Below are positions 32,369 through 42,632 of a stretch of 44,211 nt of DNA, in pieces. Within the stretch, counting starts at the first letter, position 1, and each line of letters begins with the position of its first letter. The notes below the pieces were generated by a model, which searched no databases, was not told where the DNA came from, and saw nothing but the letters and a program-made list of their open reading frames with translations. The position numbers were made by a program, and so were the translations under genes. Origin of the DNA: Ignavibacteriota bacterium (lineage in GTDB: Bacteria > Bacteroidota > Ignavibacteria > UBA10030 > SZUA-254); assembly GCA_016209795.1 (NCBI GenBank), contig JACQVI010000148.1, forward strand, positions 1 through 44,211, in the 5' to 3' direction.

Positions 32369-34753
32369 ATGAAGAAGAACTCGATGGAAGTGCTACTTAC
32401 GACTAACCAAGATCCGCAGGGCACCGATTCAATAGCAGAAGTTATGAAGAAGGCTGAAGAACAGTCTTGGAACACCTTTGGAAACCTACTTGAATCTCTC
32501 CCTTTTGCCCTTCTTGTCGTCGATTCTGAAGGAATCATCACACAGGTCAATGTTCACACTGAAAGATTGTTTGGATACGAGCGTGAGGAGCTGCTAAACA
32601 AATACGTAGAAACTCTGTTACCTGAGAGGTTCAGGCATATCCACATGCAACACCGAACTGATTATGCTACTGCACCACGCGCCCGAAACATGGGTACAGG
32701 CTTGGAACTGTATGGCAGGCGAAAAGACGGTACGGAATTCCCGGTGGATGTTGCTCTTGGTCCGATGAAACTCGATGGCACATTTTTCATTATTTGTGTC
32801 ATCAGAGACATTACTGAACAAAAGCGAGCACTAGAAGAACTCACAATAGCAGAAGAAAGGTATCGAAATATCTTTGAAAATGCCGTCGAAGGGATCTTCC
32901 AATCCACACCTGATGGGCACTTCATCGATGTCAATCCTGCCTTTGCTCGTATCTTGGGATATGAATCTCGTGAAGAAGTCCTTTCCACAATCAAAGATAT
33001 ACGAAAACAACTGTATCTCGATTCCACTCGCCGTGATGAAATGCAGCAGTTATTGGCAGAGTATGGTGTCATTCATGGATTTCAATCTCAGTTGTATCGA
33101 AAAGACGGCGGGATTATTTGGGTATCTGAAAGTCTTCGTGCGGTTCGGGATTCAAATGGTGAAATTATCTATTACGAGGGTATGTTGGAAGATATCACCG
33201 AACTGACACTGATCAAGGAACGGGATCGAGAACTTGCCGAACTGCTCAATATAACGCCCGATGCAGTGATCGTGCAAGATATGCAGGACAGGGTCGTATT
33301 CTGGAATAAAGGTGCTGAAGAAATCTACGGATGGAGTATCGAAGAAATTAGTGGTCAAGCCATTAAAAGATTCATCTATGATTCCGGCTCACCAGACTAT
33401 GACCAGATGAAACAAGCAGTCTTGGAGAACGGGAAGTGGAGGGGTGAACTAAATCAGTTGAGAAAAGATCGTCAAAAGATCATTGTGGAAGGACGCTTGG
33501 TACTAGTACCTGATCATAAAGGGCTGCCGAAGTCCATTCTCATGGTTGGCACCGATGTCACCCGGGAAAAAGCCCTTGAGAAGCAATTCTACCACGCACA
33601 GAGGCTGGAGAACATGGGTACACTTGCAGTTGGAATTGCCCACGACCTCAACAACATTCTTGCAACTATTCTTCTTTCGGTTGATATCCTCAAGAAGAAT
33701 TTACCAAATGAGGATGCCCAGCGTCTCCTCGACATGGTCATAATGAGCACTGTACGAGGGAAAGATATCATCAACCAAGTGCTAGGATTTTCACGATCTG
33801 GTGGAGGTGAACAAGGAGAGATCCAGCTTAGACACATCGCCAAAGAGATCGGACAAATCATTGAAGAGACATTTCCGAAATCGATCCGGCTACAACTCGA
33901 GATTACGAAGACACTCTGGACAATCATTGGGGATGCGACACAGGTCCATCAAGTGTTGATGAACCTCTGTGTGAATGCACGCGATGCAATGCCAAAAGGG
34001 GGTATCTTGCAAATATCCGTCGGGAATACTACGATTGATGAACAGTACGCGCGCATGCAACCTGAGGCGAAACCTGGATTATACGTTGTCCTCGATGTGT
34101 CCGACACGGGCACAGGTATCCCGCCTGATATCCTGAACAAGATCTTTGATCCGTTTTTCACGACGAAGCCATTGGGCGAAGGGACTGGTCTCGGTCTAGC
34201 TACTGTCAAGTCGATAGTAAAAAGTCATAACGGATTTATAAACGTCTATAGCGTTGTAGGGAAAGGAACTACTTTTAAGGTCTACTTCCCCGCCGCCCCT
34301 CGCACGGAGACAGGGGAGATGGAAAAAGAGCATCTAGTGCTTGTCGCTGGCCATGGTGAGTTAATTCTTCTTGTGGATGATGAACCATCAGTGCTCGAGG
34401 TTACGAAACAAACTCTGGAAATATACGGGTACCACACTCTTACAGCGATGGATGGAACAGAAGCATTGGCGCACTACGTGCAGCACAAGGGATCGATAAG
34501 TCTTGTCATCACGGATGTCATCATGCCGAATCTTGATGGAGTGGCAACAATTCGCGCTCTGCGGAAGATCAATCCACATGTAAGAGTCATTGCAACGAGT
34601 GGACTTACGATCGGTGAGCACATCGATCAATCGATCTACCCGGAGATTCAGGCTTTTTTACAAAAACCGTACTCAGCGGAAAAATTATTACGGACATTAC
34701 ACCAAGTCCTCTCAAAAACAGATAGTGATCACAATTGTGATTCTCAACCTTAG
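32369..34753 (+). CDS. Hybrid sensor histidine kinase with three PAS domains and a C-terminal receiver
   Basis: 794 residues, apparently soluble. Domains in order: PAS at about 30-150 ('[18 protein letters not shown]' ... '[17 protein letters not shown]'), PAS at about 160-285 ('[30 protein letters not shown]'), PAS at about 290-410 ('[29 protein letters not shown]'). Then HisKA with '[17 protein letters not shown]' (H425), HATPase_c with '[14 protein letters not shown]', '[22 protein letters not shown]' and '[13 protein letters not shown]', and a receiver with 'LVDDEPSV', phosphoacceptor D716 in '[13 protein letters not shown]' and '[11 protein letters not shown]'. The fused receiver suggests a phosphorelay or feedback control. 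The NtrC-type activator at 35422 is the nearest candidate partner. The start at ATG 32369 has no strong ribosome binding site. Confidence 0.93.
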
Positions 34754-35421
34754 CTGAAGCCGCAGACCATGGCGTGGTTAGACAGATTAAAAAACTTCTA
34801 CAAGTCGGCTGAAGTTGCAGTAAGTTCTTCACAAGTGGATAAGCAGCTTTACCTCAAAACGAGATGTTACTATACAAAGAAAAGATGATATGGGGGAGTC
34901 TCACTTCCATTGGGTTTCTGGATACTTGCATCATCCATCCATGCTTTCAATATCTTCGGTCGCGAACTATTGTCTGAGGATATAAATGAATAATGGCTGG
35001 CGTTCGCATGTTTGTTGTGTATTCCTCCTTGGGATTGGTATGTACACATGCATTCAATGAGCAAAAATACAAGAAATCTGAAATTGAGTATGAGCAGATC
35101 ACACAAGAGATTAGTCAAGTTGCTCGTGAAGGTACTAACTGAATTCATCCCAACATGTGACTATTGCAAGTGGATCCCTAATGAAAGAAGTAGCTTGATT
35201 CAAATCGAAGATTCAGTGCCAGAGAAAAGAAGCAAAGTGCGCGGCATTCGCCTATTTGGTCAGGATTTTTCTTAATTGCTCTCATTCAGCGGTCTTGCTC
35301 ATGGTAAGGTTTTTCGGCTGATATTTTATATGTGGTGTGCAGCCAATCTTCGAAAAGGAAGAAGACAGAAAAGTACTATCAATTCGTTGGTCATGTACTT
35401 GTGCGTATTACTGAGGCAGCT
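34754..35421. other. Intergenic region containing a decayed signalling-gene tail
   Basis: About 670 bp between the hybrid kinase and the sigma-54 activator. Its second half holds the frameshifted relic listed at 34993-35275. The first part contains a 39-codon frame at 34770 (MAWLDRLKNFYKS...) with no ribosome binding site and no recognisable family. No sigma-54 GG-N10-GC match was found before the activator gene. Confidence 0.4.
34993..35275 (+). pseudogene. Frameshifted relic of a PAS/receiver protein tail ('C-x2-C-K' motif)
   Basis: An open frame from ATG 34993 reads a helix-like stretch ending 'EYEQITQEISQVARE' and stops at 35140-35142. Shifting frame at about 35128 continues as 'VLTEFIPTCDYCKWIPNERS' and then 'SLIQIEDSV'. 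Together they match the common tail of PAS and receiver proteins, a helical linker followed by 'LPICSYCKKIRDDEG-W-QIE-YI', but the later conserved part ('FSHGICP-C') is lost. So one frameshift plus truncation is needed to restore the pattern. The motif name and consensus are from general knowledge; the alignment is by eye. Confidence 0.45.
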
Positions 35422-36795
35422 ATGGAAACTATGCCATCACACAACATATTAATTGTAGAGGACGACCAAGAACAGAGAGCTCTTATTTTGCAGATTGTCT
35501 CGACTCCTAACAGGTGTGTCGACATTGCAGCGGACGGTACAGCTGCAATCAACTGCATAAACCGGAAACCCTACGACCTCGTCTTACTCGACTTGGGGCT
35601 ACCCCACGTGAGTGGGATGGAGGTCTTGGCGCACATGAAATCCTATGCGAACTCAACACCGGTCATCATCATCACAGGATCTCGCGATGTGAAGGTAGCT
35701 GTCGAGGCGATGAAGCGTGGAGCGTATGATTACCTGACGAAACCGTTTGGCGCAGATGAGATCACGCTTGCTGTCAAACGAGCTCTTGAATTCCAGGTTT
35801 TACGGAATTCCGTCAAGCTTGTCGAGAGATTAAGAGAGCATTTGATGGACGAAGAATGCATTGTTGGAACAAGCAGTGTTTGGCTCGCTGTGTTGGATAA
35901 GGCTAGGCAGTACGCCCAAAGTGATTCACTGGTCTACATAGAAGGTGAAACTGGATCTGGTAAGGAGGTTATAGCCAAATACATCCACCGCTGTAGTGCA
36001 CGAAGGGATGAACCGTTTGTTGTGATTGACTGTGGTGTGATTCCAGATCCACTCATTGAGGCAGAACTCTTTGGGTACAAGAAGGGGGCATTCACCGGTG
36101 CTGATTCCGCGAAAGAAGGTTTGGTTGAGCTTGCAAACGGGGGAACACTCTTCCTGGACGAGATCGGGCACATCGATCTACGGTTTCAACAGAAGCTACT
36201 CAAGTTCGTAGAGACCAAATCGTTCCGTCGCATTGGAGATACGCAGGAACGCATTGTTGACGTTCGAATTATCGCAGCGACGAACAAGGATCTGACGAAA
36301 GAGAGTGAAGCAGGACGATTCCGAAGCGACTTGTGGTATCGGTTAAATGTCATGAAACTCTACGTTCCTTCTTTGCGCGAGCGAGCAGACGATATCCCCT
36401 TGCTCGCAGAACATTTTCTCAAGAAATCTCGCCATTACCGGAACGTAAAGGTATTAGCGCCCGAAGCACTTGAAGCACTCCAGCAGTATTCTTGGCCCGG
36501 AAACGTGAGAGAGCTTCAATCGATCATCGAGCGTGCTATTGTGATCTCGTCGAGTGATGAGGTAATCAGACTCAGCGATCTGGAAATCGAGCCACTCCGC
36601 TACTCATCTTTTGGGGAAAGTTTAGATAGGAGCGTATCCTTGATGTCGTTGCGGGAGGCGGAGCAACGGCACATTGTCCAAGTACTGACGACAGTCAACT
36701 GGAATATCTCCCGAGCTGCGAAAATACTGAAAATTGGACGGACGACCCTCTACGATAAGATGGAAACCTATCTAATACGGCCTCCTGCACCCTAG
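35422..36795 (+). CDS. NtrC-family sigma-54-dependent response regulator
   Basis: Transcription activator of 457 residues from ATG 35422 ('GAGG' 5 nt upstream; the frame is open to 35332). The receiver has 'VEDDQ' and phosphoacceptor D57 in 'LVLLDLGLPHVSG' and 'LTKPFG'. The AAA+ domain has Walker A 'GETGSGKE' (K181), the sigma-54 contact loop GAFTGA at 222-227, Walker B 'GGTLFLDEIGHID' and 'RSDLWYRLNV'. It ends with a Fis-type helix-turn-helix ('NWNISRAAKILKIGRTTLYDKM'). All residues needed for ATP-driven opening of sigma-54 promoters are present. A good sigma-54 promoter (37065) with an upstream dyad lies just beyond its 3' end, before the surface-protein operon, its most likely target. Confidence 0.95.
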   Translation: METMPSHNILIVEDDQEQRALILQIVSTPNRCVDIAADGTAAINCINRKPYDLVLLDLGLPHVSGMEVLAHMKSYANSTPVIIITGSRDVKVAVEAMKRGAYDYLTKPFGADEITLAVKRALEFQVLRNSVKLVERLREHLMDEECIVGTSSVWLAVLDKARQYAQSDSLVYIEGETGSGKEVIAKYIHRCSARRDEPFVVIDCGVIPDPLIEAELFGYKKGAFTGADSAKEGLVELANGGTLFLDEIGHIDLRFQQKLLKFVETKSFRRIGDTQERIVDVRIIAATNKDLTKESEAGRFRSDLWYRLNVMKLYVPSLRERADDIPLLAEHFLKKSRHYRNVKVLAPEALEALQQYSWPGNVRELQSIIERAIVISSSDEVIRLSDLEIEPLRYSSFGESLDRSVSLMSLREAEQRHIVQVLTTVNWNISRAAKILKIGRTTLYDKMETYLIRPPAP

Positions 36796-37064: not shown

Positions 37065-37080
37065 TTGGCATTTCAATTGC
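37065..37080 (+). promoter_or_regulatory. Sigma-54 promoter of the surface-protein operon
   Basis: TTGGCATTTCAATTGC: GG at 37067-37068 and GC at 37079-37080, separated by exactly 10 nt, with complete TTGGCA and TTGC elements. This is the best sigma-54 match I found in the window. Predicted transcription start is near 37092, leaving a leader of about 225 nt before ATG 37317. Confidence 0.65.
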
Positions 37081-37097
37081 TGAGTAGGTTGCAGCGT

Positions 37098-37262
37098 ATG
37101 AATGAAGAACGGATCACACACACTATAGGTAGTAGAGTAGACAATAAGAATGGCCTCAACAATCAGAGCCAACTGAATCATCTCTCCGGAGTTGTGGCGC
37201 AAATAGAAGAATACTTTAAACGCATTCTCAGTCAGATGAGAAGGACTGAGAAAAACAACTGA
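37098..37262 (+). CDS. Possible 54-residue peptide in the leader of the surface operon
   Basis: ATG at 37098, six nt after the predicted sigma-54 start point, reading 54 codons ('MNEERITHTIGSRVDNKNGL' ... 'VVAQIEEYFKRILSQMRR'). The second half looks like an amphipathic, charged helix. There is no room for a ribosome binding site if transcription begins at 37092, so it would be leaderless, or untranslated. No family recognised. Confidence 0.3.
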   Translation: MNEERITHTIGSRVDNKNGLNNQSQLNHLSGVVAQIEEYFKRILSQMRRTEKNN

Positions 37263-37316
37263 AATGGAATTACATATAAACAATAACTTATGAAACAATC
37301 AATATCAGGAGAACAT

Positions 37317-40262
37317 ATGCACTACTCAATTCTAAAGCAAATTCTTACAATACTTTGTTTGTTCTTAACTACTCAAGTAATGTTTGCCATACCGTTGAGT
37401 TCACGGTCCATCAAAACCCCCGATCTGATCGGTGGTCATGATATGGAAAGTATTGAACTAGCAGCAGTAGGTACTTATTGGTTCAATCCCAACAAAGTTC
37501 AGGCAGATAATCCACTTCCGATAATCTCGAATCTCGAACCGAATAAAGTGATTGTTGGTTTGGGTGCCATTACCTTGATCGTAAGAGGCTCAGGCTTTGT
37601 GTCTCAATCTGAGGTGATCTTAAATAATGAAAGCCGGCCGACAAGGTTTATTGATTCAAGCGAGTTGAGAGTGGTAATACCTGCAAGCATTTTACATCGT
37701 GCACAGGAGATTTTTGTAGTAGTGTATAATCCTCCTCCCGGTGGAGGATACTCGACCCCGGTCATTTTTACAATCGAGAATCCCATCCCTGTTGTTACGA
37801 GTATAACACCAACAAGCAAAATTCTTGGTGATAGTGCATTTACGATGTTCATCAATGGGAGAAATTTCGTTGAGCAATCTGAAGTACGTTTTGATGGACT
37901 GGGTCAACGCATGCAATTTATCGATAGGGCAAATCTCAGTGTCAAAGTGCCTGCTAGTGAACTAACGTCAGCGAGGGAGATCGAGGTAAGGGTGATCAAT
38001 CCATCGCCAGGTGGTGGGCTTTCCAACGAGGTGACCTTCGTTGTGGCAAACCCAGTGCCAATAATATCAAGAATGACACCATCGATGAACTACTTGGGCA
38101 GCTCTGGATTCATACTGACAGTCGATGGAACAAACTTCATACCCGGTTCTATTATTCAATGGAATGGCAGTGCAAGGCTGACGGAATTCATTAGCGCAAC
38201 GAAACTGGAAGCATCGATCCTTCAGACTGATCTTTTGTCTTCCGGCAAGATTAGTGTGACAGTATCCAATCCCACACCAGGCGGAGGTGTCTCAAATGAG
38301 CAGCAGTTTGTCGTCCTCGGGGGATTGATCAACGGAAAAGTGTACGACGATCGGAATGGAAATGGCTTCAGAGATGAAGGTGAGGAAGGATTGTATCCTT
38401 GGATGGTATTTTTGATGAAGAATGATATTCCCGTCGACAGCACCATGAGCACGGATGGTGGCTACTTTACCTTTATTAACCTTGCTCTGGATTCATATAA
38501 GGTTCAGGCACAAGTTCCACCCGGATGGACACAAACCCAGCCATCACAGGAGAACGGACACACAGTCAAACTTGTTGATTCACTTGTGGTGTCGGAAATT
38601 GATTTTGGAATCTTCAAAGATGGTCGAATAAGTGGATGTGTGTTCAACGACCGAAATATGAACCGAGTCCGTGAGGCTGAGGAAGAAGGTCTACCAGGAT
38701 TTCGCGTCAGAATACAAGCTGGCAACAAGGAGTCGTTAACAGAAACGCAGGCAGAAGGTACATTTTCATTCTCTCATGTGCTCGCCGGTGAATACATAGT
38801 TCGTCTTAGCCTCGACGCAGGCTGGATGCAAACATATCCGAACAATGAATATCGTATTACTACTCTCAGTGGTATCGATACTTCAGGCTTCTGTTTCGGT
38901 GTCAGTTTCGCGAGCAATGACACACAGGAGTATCGTACGTTCCTTCCCGAGAGTATAAGTGTGCCGAAAGCTGTCAAGCCAAAACCCTACGCTTCGAAGT
39001 TCTGGTTCGAGTTCCAGAATCAAACGGAGCGAGACGTAAATGGCTTGCATGTCGAATTCGTAAGTCCAGTGACCTCTATCATCCAGGCAATGCCATTTGC
39101 TACCGTACGTGCGAGAACCCAATTCCATCGAGAGTTTGACTTCACCGGGGCGACTGTCGCGAGATCTCAGCTTGTTGAGATTGTCGGATTGGGTCCAAAG
39201 TCTGGCATGAGAGTGAAAAGGTGGTGGTGGACCTACAATGGTAGTATCGTTGCCGCACGGAATCAGAGTTTACTCCCGACGAAGCTGGAATTCCTACTCC
39301 CAATGCCCAATGCGGCAAACCTCAGGAACGAAGTTTTCTTGAGGATGGCATATCAGTCCACATCACCCAATTCATCGAGTGCTGGTATGATTATCGGTGT
39401 GCCACAACGAGATCCGAAGACTTACGGTTGGGTGGTGTTGCGCAAGAGCTCTGATGTAGTACGTTCCTTGAATGATCGCTTTGGTCGCCATGTTGGCGAG
39501 CCTCGAGGATTCGATATCTTCAGAAATGGCCGACCGTTTGTAGGAGAACAAAAGTTGCTACCACCTTCAAAACAAAACAACAGATTGTTTGCAGATCTTG
39601 TAATACTCAAATTGAACATCAGTGCGAGTGAACTACAGTTAATCCCGAACGGTTTAGGAGAGCTAATCTTCCAAGAGGAGGGGAACAGCTTAAGTGGGAT
39701 GATGGTTCGTGAAATCGTCGCGCGCGCTGACAGTGTAATGACGTATTGGCCTGGAATCGCAACGGCTGAATATGAAACTCTCTACTCCGCGATTCGCAAA
39801 ATCAATGCCGCGTTCTCCGGACCTATCGACACAGTCTCATTTGGTTCCCAGTTTCGCTTAACGGGTGTGAGGAAATTGGCCGAGGTGCCATTCCTGCGGA
39901 GGAATCCGTCCATGGCACCGCGTGTGGTGGTTACACCATCTGTTGTGGATGAGAACATGCCACAGGTGTATGAGTTAGGACAGAACTACCCAAACCCGTT
40001 TAACCCAACCACAACCATCGAGTTTGAACTAGCACGGCAGTCGGTTGTGACTCTGAAAATATTCAACGTGCTCGGTCAGGAACTTTTGACGCTCATAGAG
40101 AACGAAGAGATGGTCACAGGGAGTTACAGCATAGAATTCAATGGAACTAGCTTGGCTTCCGGTGTGTACTTCTACCGAATTGTTGCATATGCAGATGACA
40201 CCGAGGAGGGTGCTGGTCAAGAACTGTTTACAAGCACCAGAAAAATGATACTTGCGAAGTAG
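37317..40262 (+). CDS. Secreted TIG/SdrD-like multidomain surface protein with T9SS sorting domain
   Basis: Exported adhesin-like protein of 981 residues. ATG 37317 has 'AGGAG' 5 nt upstream, better than ATG 37290. Signal peptide: 'ILTILCLFLTTQVMFAIP'. About 55-340: three consecutive IPT/TIG immunoglobulin-like repeats, each opening 'P.PIIS...P....G...F.L.V.G.NF' and closing 'V.NP.PGGG.S'. About 340-540: two SdrD/Cna-B-like domains ('GKVYDDRNGNGFRDEGEEGL', 'GCVFNDRNMNRVREAEEEGL'), the second with altered acidic residues. About 540-890: an unassigned region. The end is a T9SS domain ('ELGQNYPNPFNPTTTIEF' ... 'SGVYFYRIVA'). It is the first gene of a three-gene operon. Likely surface-exposed stalk or adhesin; binding partner unknown. 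Confidence 0.9.
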   Translation: MHYSILKQILTILCLFLTTQVMFAIPLSSRSIKTPDLIGGHDMESIELAAVGTYWFNPNKVQADNPLPIISNLEPNKVIVGLGAITLIVRGSGFVSQSEVILNNESRPTRFIDSSELRVVIPASILHRAQEIFVVVYNPPPGGGYSTPVIFTIENPIPVVTSITPTSKILGDSAFTMFINGRNFVEQSEVRFDGLGQRMQFIDRANLSVKVPASELTSAREIEVRVINPSPGGGLSNEVTFVVANPVPIISRMTPSMNYLGSSGFILTVDGTNFIPGSIIQWNGSARLTEFISATKLEASILQTDLLSSGKISVTVSNPTPGGGVSNEQQFVVLGGLINGKVYDDRNGNGFRDEGEEGLYPWMVFLMKNDIPVDSTMSTDGGYFTFINLALDSYKVQAQVPPGWTQTQPSQENGHTVKLVDSLVVSEIDFGIFKDGRISGCVFNDRNMNRVREAEEEGLPGFRVRIQAGNKESLTETQAEGTFSFSHVLAGEYIVRLSLDAGWMQTYPNNEYRITTLSGIDTSGFCFGVSFASNDTQEYRTFLPESISVPKAVKPKPYASKFWFEFQNQTERDVNGLHVEFVSPVTSIIQAMPFATVRARTQFHREFDFTGATVARSQLVEIVGLGPKSGMRVKRWWWTYNGSIVAARNQSLLPTKLEFLLPMPNAANLRNEVFLRMAYQSTSPNSSSAGMIIGVPQRDPKTYGWVVLRKSSDVVRSLNDRFGRHVGEPRGFDIFRNGRPFVGEQKLLPPSKQNNRLFADLVILKLNISASELQLIPNGLGELIFQEEGNSLSGMMVREIVARADSVMTYWPGIATAEYETLYSAIRKINAAFSGPIDTVSFGSQFRLTGVRKLAEVPFLRRNPSMAPRVVVTPSVVDENMPQVYELGQNYPNPFNPTTTIEFELARQSVVTLKIFNVLGQELLTLIENEEMVTGSYSIEFNGTSLASGVYFYRIVAYADDTEEGAGQELFTSTRKMILAK

Positions 40263-40328
40263 ATCGCGCATGGTATTGATCACCAGGATATACACGATGA
40301 CTACACGCAGGAGAAAGGAAAAAGAACA

Positions 40329-40838
40329 ATGAAGCCGGTCAGAGCAACCAGCAGAATCCGCTCAGGGCGATTTTTCCTTGCTGCAGCCTTGCTGACGCTA
40401 GGCGCATGCGCTACTGCCGGTGCACAGCGAAACGCATCTGTCTCAGCATCTGCTACAATCACTTTTAGAGCTGTAGTCTCACCTATGGATAAAATAGGAA
40501 CTGGTGCAAGCCAGGTCTCATCGATACTCCGGGATCTTGATACGATGGAAACCCCTCCCGATGAGGGAGCCTGGATAACAGCGTCCCTTGACAATAGGTT
40601 TTTTTTTCCACCACGACAGGGCGTCGTTGAGAGTGAACCTTCAGCTTACAAATCCACTCCGCTAAGCTTCAAGATCGAGGATATGTATTGCAATCACTCA
40701 CGGGGAGTTGCTGCAATTCTGGGATCTGATGGAAACCTGTACATCCGTACGCCGCAAGCCGATGACCAACACCCATCTGAGTGGGGAGGCATTGAAAGCG
40801 GATCCAGTATTCTCCTCGTCGTGTCTGTTGTAGACTGA
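40329..40838 (+). CDS. Small exported protein of unknown function, possibly pilin-like
   Basis: 169 residues with an N-terminal export signal ('RFFLAAALLTLGACATAGAQ'). Cleavage after 'AGA' by signal peptidase I or lipid attachment at the Cys of 'LGAC' (an imperfect lipobox) are both possible. The mature part starts 'RNASVSASATITFRAVVSPM', a repetitive Ala/Ser/Thr beta-strand pattern like small DUF4402/pilin-type surface subunits, and ends with a strand 'SILLVVSVVD', as in donor-strand or beta-sandwich subunits. No confident family match. Ribosome binding site 'AGGAGAAAGGA' upstream. It sits between the TIG/T9SS gene (66 bp) and the PapD-like gene (27 bp), so all three are probably one transcript. 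Confidence 0.7.
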   Translation: MKPVRATSRIRSGRFFLAAALLTLGACATAGAQRNASVSASATITFRAVVSPMDKIGTGASQVSSILRDLDTMETPPDEGAWITASLDNRFFFPPRQGVVESEPSAYKSTPLSFKIEDMYCNHSRGVAAILGSDGNLYIRTPQADDQHPSEWGGIESGSSILLVVSVVD

Positions 40839-40865
40839 GGAGTACTTTTTGCAGGAAGGACTTCA

Positions 40866-42074
40866 ATGAAAAGATATAGAACAGTGCGTAAACTCATGTG
40901 CGATCTCGTTGGTTCTCAATTTGTAGTACGAGGTCGTGGAAAAACGATTGTCATGTCAATTATTCTTAGTTTCTTGCTGCTTTCCGAATGGACTGATGGG
41001 GTGTTAGCCGATGTGACTATTTCTCCGACGACACTATACTTTAGCAAAATGAATCCGCGAGGAAGAGTTACCATTGTGAACGGTGATATAGACGCAAAAA
41101 TTGTCGATGTTTCTCTTTCGTTTGGATATCCTGTATCGGACAATGACGGAAACATATCATTCCGCTTCATTGATTCTACGAATAATGTAGAGTCATCGAT
41201 GCGTTCCTGGGTGAGAGTTTATCCTTGTCACTTCGAACTTGCACCTAATGAGTACCAAGTGGTTACGATTGTTGCAGAACCGCCGGAAGAACTGCCGGAT
41301 GGCGAGTACTGGCTCAGACCAAAACTGATCGTTCGGTCAATCGATTCCCTCTATCAGACCAATGAAAGTCCAGATCGATTAAGGTTGAATACAAAAGAAA
41401 TTCATCAATACATCCTAAGTGTGAATTATCGACATGGCATTGCTTGGACTGGGATCTCTATCCGTAATATTTCAGCTACAGTGCGAGGCAAGAGACTACG
41501 ATTGTTGGTAGCTCTTCAGCGCGAAGGAAATGCAGCTTATCGGGGGAATATTGTCTGTTCTCTCTGGGGAGCAGATGGACATTGTCTCGTTGATCGCAAA
41601 CGGGAAGTTGCTGTTTACCATTCGCTGAATCATCGCTTTGAATTTGAGGTTGGCGATGTTGGGTTCTCGGATGGTGCCTATACTGCGCAAATCGAATTAA
41701 ATACCGATCGGCAGGGAGATGTCTTACGGTCACCCCCAGTAAACCGAACCTTCACATTCAAAATAAAAAAAGGCGTTGCTATCGATAACTTAGCCAATGA
41801 CATCAAGATCATAACGACGCCGTTATCAGAGAAGAATCCTTCTCTGCTACGATTCGAGCGAAGTGTACAGGGCTCCCTACATAAGATAACAGAGGACACA
41901 GTCGCTTGCCAAAGCCCAGAAACAACTCATGTGGCTCAATTTAGAGATCGGTTCGATGCGCTAGTAGAATCGCACAAAAAAGTCAGGACTTTAGAAAAAA
42001 GGCTCAAGGAGATCAATCGAGAGCAGGATATGATTTTGAGAGAGCTACGCAAGCTTACAGTGATAATCCAATAG
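40866..42074 (+). CDS. PapD-like periplasmic chaperone/surface protein with C-terminal coiled coil
   Basis: 402 residues. The signal peptide is unusually long: about 27 basic/polar residues precede the hydrophobic core 'TIVMSIILSFLLLSEWTDGVLA'. The first mature domain resembles the pilus-chaperone (PapD-like) immunoglobulin fold: 'VTISPTTLYFSKMNPRGRVTIVNGD' ... 'WVRVYPCHFELAPNEYQVVTIVAEPPEELPDGEYWLRPKLIV'. A second beta domain follows (about 170-310). The last ~45 residues are a heptad-like coiled coil ('RFDALVESHKKVRTLEKRLKEINREQDMIL'). No usher gene is visible. It may fold or anchor the small protein encoded just upstream. 'AGGAAGGA' supports the start. Fold assignment is by motif and moderately sure. 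Confidence 0.7.
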   Translation: MKRYRTVRKLMCDLVGSQFVVRGRGKTIVMSIILSFLLLSEWTDGVLADVTISPTTLYFSKMNPRGRVTIVNGDIDAKIVDVSLSFGYPVSDNDGNISFRFIDSTNNVESSMRSWVRVYPCHFELAPNEYQVVTIVAEPPEELPDGEYWLRPKLIVRSIDSLYQTNESPDRLRLNTKEIHQYILSVNYRHGIAWTGISIRNISATVRGKRLRLLVALQREGNAAYRGNIVCSLWGADGHCLVDRKREVAVYHSLNHRFEFEVGDVGFSDGAYTAQIELNTDRQGDVLRSPPVNRTFTFKIKKGVAIDNLANDIKIITTPLSEKNPSLLRFERSVQGSLHKITEDTVACQSPETTHVAQFRDRFDALVESHKKVRTLEKRLKEINREQDMILRELRKLTVIIQ

Positions 42075-42135: not shown

Positions 42136-42270
42136 ATGAAAGGCTCAATTTGGCTGAGAGTGCTGGTCCTCGAATCTTGGGTTACGGCCATCTTGACCGG
42201 ACAACCTTTTATAGAGAGTTTGAATTCTGACGACATCTCAACACCATTATGGATCCAAACGAAAAGATAA
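42136..42270 (+). CDS. Possible 44-residue ORF overlapping the receiver gene start
   Basis: ATG at 42136 preceded by 'AAGGAACC' and running 44 codons to a stop at 42268-42270, so it overlaps the first 22 nt of the receiver gene in another frame. The peptide ('MKGSIWLRVLVLESWVTAIL' ...) has a hydrophobic N-terminus. No family known. Arrangement resembles the short ORF overlapping the sugar transferase at 7191. Confidence 0.25.
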   Translation: MKGSIWLRVLVLESWVTAILTGQPFIESLNSDDISTPLWIQTKR

Positions 42271-42632
42271 CAATCTTGCTTGCTGATGATAACGACGAGC
42301 TTCTACAGATACTCAGTGCTTTACTTTCTGAGATGGGCTACCGCGTTTTAAGGGCAAGAGATGGGGAACAGGCGATTGTAACACTTCATGAGACAACAGT
42401 GCATCTGGTAATACTTGATCTCAAGATGCCTAAGGTTGATGGTTGGGATGTCTTGGTGTATGTGAAGCAACAGTTACCGAGTGTTAGAGTGGTAGTGCTT
42501 ACGGCATACGGGAGTAAAGCCAACGCTCTGAGGGCGAAAGAGATGGGTGCAGATGAGTTGATACAGAAACCATTCGATGTTGGAGAACTCTTCAGTAAAG
42601 TTAATAGAATATTAAACCTCAATTCGACCTAG
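42249..42632 (+). CDS. Single-domain response regulator (CheY-like receiver)
   Basis: 127-residue stand-alone receiver. Conserved residues: D13/D14 in 'LLADDND', phosphoacceptor D57 in 'LVILDLKMPKVDG', T85 in 'VLTAYG' and K107 in 'IQKPFD'. No output domain. The nearest genes are the PapD-like gene (same strand, 174 bp upstream) and the degenerate NtrC-like gene on the other strand. It may serve the hybrid kinase at 32369 or a kinase outside the window. Similar to the orphan receiver at 10345. Confidence 0.9.
   Translation: MDPNEKITILLADDNDELLQILSALLSEMGYRVLRARDGEQAIVTLHETTVHLVILDLKMPKVDGWDVLVYVKQQLPSVRVVVLTAYGSKANALRAKEMGADELIQKPFDVGELFSKVNRILNLNST

Follow-up and report, generated by a model that had tools for sequence, protein, structure and literature searches.

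Chaperone-usher systems, or ushers, have been listed for Proteobacteria, Cyanobacteria, Deinococcus-Thermus and Spirochaetes, a list that does not include Bacteroidota (PMC4654587, PMC4827864), and the fimbriae of Porphyromonas are described as type V pili, whose assembly involves neither chaperones nor ushers (PMC5954841). Chaperones of the archaic and alternative pathways are marked by an invariant Pro, together with an Arg (strand F1) and a Tyr (strand F2) by which the subunit C-terminus is anchored (PMC4654587). Three genes, here named A, B and C, were analysed in a stretch of 44,211 nucleotides from an Ignavibacteriota bacterium (the window; GenBank contig JACQVI010000148.1), which is one whole contig (C124) of a genome of 3.39 Mb, 96% complete and belonging to Bacteroidota in the broad GTDB sense. 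A sequence-only reading of this DNA had proposed a surface-structure operon combining a TIG/SdrD protein exported by the type IX secretion system (T9SS), a pilin-like protein and a PapD-like protein with a coiled coil. The results described below place protein C, by predicted fold and by family, in a non-classical chaperone-usher system of Bacteroidota and Gemmatimonadota, of which the A-B-C locus appears, from sequence comparison, to be a rare and old offshoot with no usher of its own.

No Pfam or NCBIfam family matched C alone. Its AlphaFold2 model, built from 32 sequences, showed a hydrophobic (signal) helix at residues 26-42, two immunoglobulin (Ig)-like domains with a predicted local distance difference test score (pLDDT) mostly above 90, and helices at 325-346 and 353-401. 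PapD-type chaperones matched this model across both domains with Foldseek and VIA-align, many of them with a Foldseek E-value near 1e-8; superposition on the archaic chaperone CsuC gave a Z score of 13.7 and a root-mean-square deviation (rmsd) of 3.4 Å over 183 aligned residues (VIA-align). When the profile of the C family was compared with that of seven E. coli K-12 chaperones, a probability of 95.6 and an E-value of 1.2e-8 were obtained (controls for this comparison, 0.2%). The PDB sequences were also searched with chaperone and usher alignment profiles, which rendered no chaperone or usher match, so that homology rests on the profile-profile comparison and the predicted folds. Pro120 of C is invariant in an alignment of 38 sequences and corresponds to the superfamily-invariant Pro of domain 1, its equivalence to CsuC Pro59 being taken from strand order. 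Arg151 (strand F1) and Tyr272 (strand F2) are also present in C and kept in 92% of the family, these positions having been matched by predicted strand order and not by superposed coordinates; the chaperone of a counterpart locus, L051 (see below), has Lys where C has Arg151. As modelled, C is a two-domain periplasmic chaperone of the PapD superfamily, in agreement with the sequence-only reading, and may bind and stabilise subunits.

Of 296 genomes sampled from the phylum, 50 (about 17%) had a homologue of C, as did 24 of 98 from the order and, when a profile served as the query, 75 of 294 from the class; further homologues lie on named contigs of Balneolaceae, Cyclobacteriaceae, Rhodothermota, Kryptoniota and Gemmatimonadota. 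The usual gene order is one to four small exported proteins, then a chaperone of about 280 amino acids (aa), then a large protein of about 850-1530 aa. The small proteins belong either to DUF4402 (PF14352) or to a group that hhalign links with it (probability 99.2). The large protein directly follows the chaperone in 39 of 42 loci in one set, which partly served for building the profile, and in 34 of 36 in a second. Aligned with E. coli ushers by hhalign, it gave a probability of 98.7 and an E-value of 2.5e-16 over 508 columns. The AlphaFold2 model of the large protein from Algoriphagus (pLDDT 83.8) had FimD or PapC as all of its 18 best Foldseek matches, and reached a VIA-align Z score of 22.5 with FimD/PapC as compared with about 13 for other barrels. 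The large protein is identified by these profiles and models as a divergent usher, and the family of C as part of a chaperone-usher system. The Pfam model Usher (PF00577) matched only 3 of 26 divergent ushers, weakly (best E-value 0.00032), and NCBIfam gave no usher match among them; this branch is therefore not covered by the standard models. All 15 genomes of the window's own family carry at least part of a divergent usher. The suggestion of an usher-less surface system is therefore right only in part: membership of C in a class of systems devoid of ushers is not supported, since its homologues sit upstream of a divergent usher in nearly all of the loci counted above.

Among the closest described systems is the archaic (sigma) pathway of the Csu pili. 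C superposes on CsuC over both of its domains, the invariant Pro, F1 Arg and F2 Tyr are retained in its family, and the clusters are alike in containing small subunits, a chaperone and an usher. The two differ in that sequence identity is about 10%, that the Bacteroidota subunits are DUF4402 proteins or their relatives, that the Bacteroidota ushers often bear CarboxypepD_reg/SdrD_B-like and SPOR domains, and that T9SS proteins stand beside several clusters; in the window offshoot, moreover, there is no usher and the chaperone has a coiled coil. With the classical Fim system of E. coli (FimC/FimD), the family shares the FimD/PapC fold and profile homology of the usher, and profile homology of the chaperone; it differs in that the Pfam Usher model misses most of the divergent ushers and the subunits are unrelated by sequence, the window locus again being usher-less.

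Several other features of these clusters were recorded. A SPOR domain was present at the C-terminus of 14 of the 26 divergent ushers, many ushers had CarboxypepD_reg/SdrD_B-like domains, and some an N-terminal Cu_amine_oxidN1-like domain. Short proteins with a hydrophobic N-terminus (MNDYSD.., MNFG.., MGRGLL..), three or more, recur just upstream of chaperone-usher clusters, ahead of the pilin-like genes (L042, L044, L045, L076, L077, L096, L100 and other Balneolaceae loci). Near the usher gene, and often just after it, there recurs a short exported protein (about 105-145 aa) that is possibly another subunit (L037 13751-14110, L043 5366-5779, L053 13815-14153 and others). In genome G112 (L040 8961-11899), one large usher-like gene is preceded by two diverged chaperones within the same cluster.

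No usher adjoins C or its L051 counterpart, and PF00577 found no match above its curated cut-off anywhere in the window's genome. This is because the usher encoded there is divergent: one was detected, on contig C8 and not beside C, in a complete cluster with its own chaperone, a pilin-like protein and T9SS neighbours. The earlier statement that an usher is absent thus holds for the vicinity of the three genes and for the Pfam model, but not for the genome. A single-protein search of the contigs of this genome with C gave no match. C and the L051 chaperone group together (100/99) as a separate old clade, to which the usher-linked chaperones of the same family do not belong; C did not, therefore, arise recently as a copy of the chaperone on C8.

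Only two genomes were found to encode B and a C-type chaperone with a coiled coil: that of the window and the diverged genome G309, which contains locus L051. The L051 homologue of C has 386 aa and is 37% identical (E-value 8e-81), the match including the last 30 residues; the C-terminal coiled coil is conserved in both proteins, while usher-linked chaperones are without it. The L051 homologue of B has 169 aa; plain BLASTP did not find it, and none of 1000 shuffles reached its alignment score. L051 also encodes an NtrC-type regulator (59% identity to that of the window) and a T9SS protein with the C-terminal module of A (38%). B, C, the regulator and an A-module protein occur together in G309 in a rearranged gene order; the trio as such is rare, the set recurring in just one other sampled genome. 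The T9SS protein at L051 6786-13112 (2108 aa), beside the B/C pair, consists largely of HYDIN/ASH-type Ig repeats, unlike the TIG/SdrD architecture of A.

The features of the window that bear on the locus are collected in Table 1. A, B and C are all on the + strand by open reading frame (ORF) calling, separated by gaps of 66 bp (A-B) and 27 bp (B-C), with good ribosome-binding sites at the gene starts. The reading frame given for A by the ORF program was 37290..40262; the start used here has a better ribosome-binding site (AGGAG) and a signal peptide. No terminator-like site was found on the + strand between the three genes and, given this and the short gaps, a single A-B-C transcription unit is plausible. 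Of the earlier statement that three exported proteins form one unit, the ORFs and export signals were borne out, and the single unit may be taken as plausible.

Table 1. Features of the window related to the A-B-C locus (positions in the 44,211-nucleotide stretch)
Feature	Position	Strand	Description
Hybrid histidine kinase	32369..34753	+	three PAS domains; domain matches
NtrC-type sigma54-activating response regulator	35332..36795	+	59% identical to the regulator next to B and C in L051
sigma54-type -24/-12 site TTGGCATTTCAATTGCT	37065..37081	+	upstream of A; weighted scoring plus exact match
A	37317..40262	+	exported T9SS substrate (predicted): three TIG (CoaZ_rpt_PGGG) repeats, two SdrD_B domains, C-terminal module, Por_Secre_tail
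B	40329..40838	+	exported protein of 169 aa, rich in Ala, Ser and Thr, that may be a client of C; pilin identity not established
C	40866..42074	+	402 aa; two-domain PapD-fold chaperone by model (domains 47-302), coiled coil 353-401

The domain make-up of A agreed with its earlier description: its TIG repeats matched the NCBIfam model for choice-of-anchor Z repeats (CoaZ_rpt_PGGG, E-value 3e-76), SdrD_B matches were confirmed, and the C-terminal Por_Secre_tail is the T9SS sorting domain. With this tail, and with SprA encoded in the genome, A is a predicted T9SS substrate. In these respects it resembles other T9SS-exported TIG/SdrD surface proteins with CoaZ_rpt_PGGG repeats. Its C-terminal module (about residues 540-890 when A is taken in its longer reading; 38907-39959 in the window) defines a large local family of paralogous T9SS proteins, with 13 matches in the same genome and up to 21 scored in relatives; A alone is nothing unusual. 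The T9SS protein beside the C8 cluster has this module as well (31% identity).

Protein B, which has a signal peptide, matched no Pfam or NCBIfam family, DUF4402 (PF14352) included. Its full-length profile match to DUF4402-type proteins was limited to the signal peptide and the N-terminus, and the C-terminal profile did no better than shuffles. It did not resemble the small protein of the C8 cluster, and a search for homologues across the order found only that of L051. The identification of B as a DUF4402 pilin is not supported, profile similarity being no better than chance, and neither is its assignment to the short proteins found after usher genes; that it is pilin-like, as first read, could not be established.

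sigma54-type sites scoring as high as that upstream of A are expected 0.2 times per window; there were two, the second of them within A on the opposite strand. The best sigma54-type site of L051 lies directly upstream of B, and another is found upstream of the T9SS gene. RpoN is encoded in the window's genome. The site weighting was self-made, so this evidence is good rather than decisive, and A-B-C is probably under sigma54 control. In both loci a small ORF separates the T9SS gene from the sigma54-type site (37098-37262 in the window, 54 aa; 6558-6782 in L051, 74 aa); it was rejected as a conserved gene since no similarity between the two versions was detectable (755 of 2000 shuffles scored as well).

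The explanation put forward, to which about an even chance is given, is that C is a chaperone of the divergent family working in a sigma54-linked, usher-less offshoot, where it stabilises B. sigma54, probably with the adjacent NtrC-type regulator, would lead the cell to make A, B and C, A being exported by the T9SS; C would most likely bind and stabilise B in the periplasm by donor-strand complementation, its coiled coil probably serving to oligomerise it or to bind a further partner; and B would then either borrow the C8 usher or remain, in the periplasm or the outer membrane, as an accessory to the surface layer of A. Several observations weigh against this. Arg134, kept in all 36 other aligned chaperones, and Glu79, kept in 92%, are lost in both coiled-coil chaperones (C and that of L051), so the function of these two may have changed. 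B has no above-chance link to the DUF4402 pilins, nor the C-terminal aromatic residue usual in them. Finally, as C did not recently derive from the chaperone on C8, reliance on the usher encoded there is a guess.

The loss of Arg134 and Glu79, the coiled coil absent from usher-linked chaperones and the lack of an adjoining usher would also be consistent with the idea that C has given up the role of a pilus chaperone and is now a periplasmic or surface-associated scaffold resembling the WxL-interacting protein (WxLIP) of Enterococcus, in which the PapD-like domains hold a partner (A, B or both) and the coiled coil multimerises. WxLIP structures were indeed the best-scoring fold matches of C (Z scores 15.2 and 14.6). 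WxLIP is, however, a Gram-positive surface protein whose rmsd to C is 6.3-6.6 Å (6.3 Å for the best match), as against 3.4 Å for CsuC; C did not match the WxLIP Pfam models, which 3-5 of 32 relatives match weakly, it keeps Pro120, Arg151 and Tyr272, and many chaperones match it in Foldseek at the E-values given above. Such a scaffold is considered unlikely, if worth serious thought.

Somewhat more doubtful is that C and B work with the C8 usher, the locus supplying a sigma54-induced alternative subunit and chaperone for the same fibre. The complete C8 cluster and the A-type module in the T9SS protein there would fit such a role, but C8 has a chaperone and a pilin-like gene of its own, the 100/99 clade sets C and its counterpart apart as an old lineage, and B is unlike the small protein of C8. 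It is improbable, though conceivable, that C has left the usher pathway and passes B, or a portion of A, on to the T9SS or a surface layer built by it, giving a sigma54-controlled, usher-free fibre. That the three genes have nothing to do with one another, A being a common T9SS surface protein that happens to adjoin a chaperone-like pair, is very improbable: the trio is found in two genomes only and A's module has so many paralogues that the adjacency of one copy is weak evidence, but B, C, the regulator and a protein with the A module are again found together in G309, with sigma54-type sites upstream of both units.

Upstream of A-B-C lies an exopolysaccharide/capsule cluster (2598-31703) encoding a Bac_transf sugar transferase, Wzi, Wzz, a flippase, a Wzy_C protein of the O-antigen-ligase type, a glycosyltransferase and an asparagine synthase, which suggests that A-B-C may contribute to a surface layer or biofilm. 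A T9SS Kelch protein is embedded in this cluster. The hybrid histidine kinase is a possible partner of the NtrC-type regulator. Directly after C comes a receiver-only response regulator (42249-42632), and another sigma54-activator-like protein is located at the contig end (43267-44187, - strand).

Judged from the open literature only, in which no paper using the term DUF4402 was found, the chaperone-usher branch of Bacteroidota appears, provisionally, to be undescribed. These data indicate that a number of Bacteroidota lineages, as well as Gemmatimonadota, commonly have a divergent chaperone-usher machinery, which the Pfam and NCBIfam usher models miss. A class of surface fibres in both phyla thus becomes directly testable, some of its members being encoded in cultured genera (Algoriphagus, Gracilimonas and Aliifodinibius). 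The offshoot in the window poses the question of whether chaperones of this kind are able to function when no usher accompanies them.

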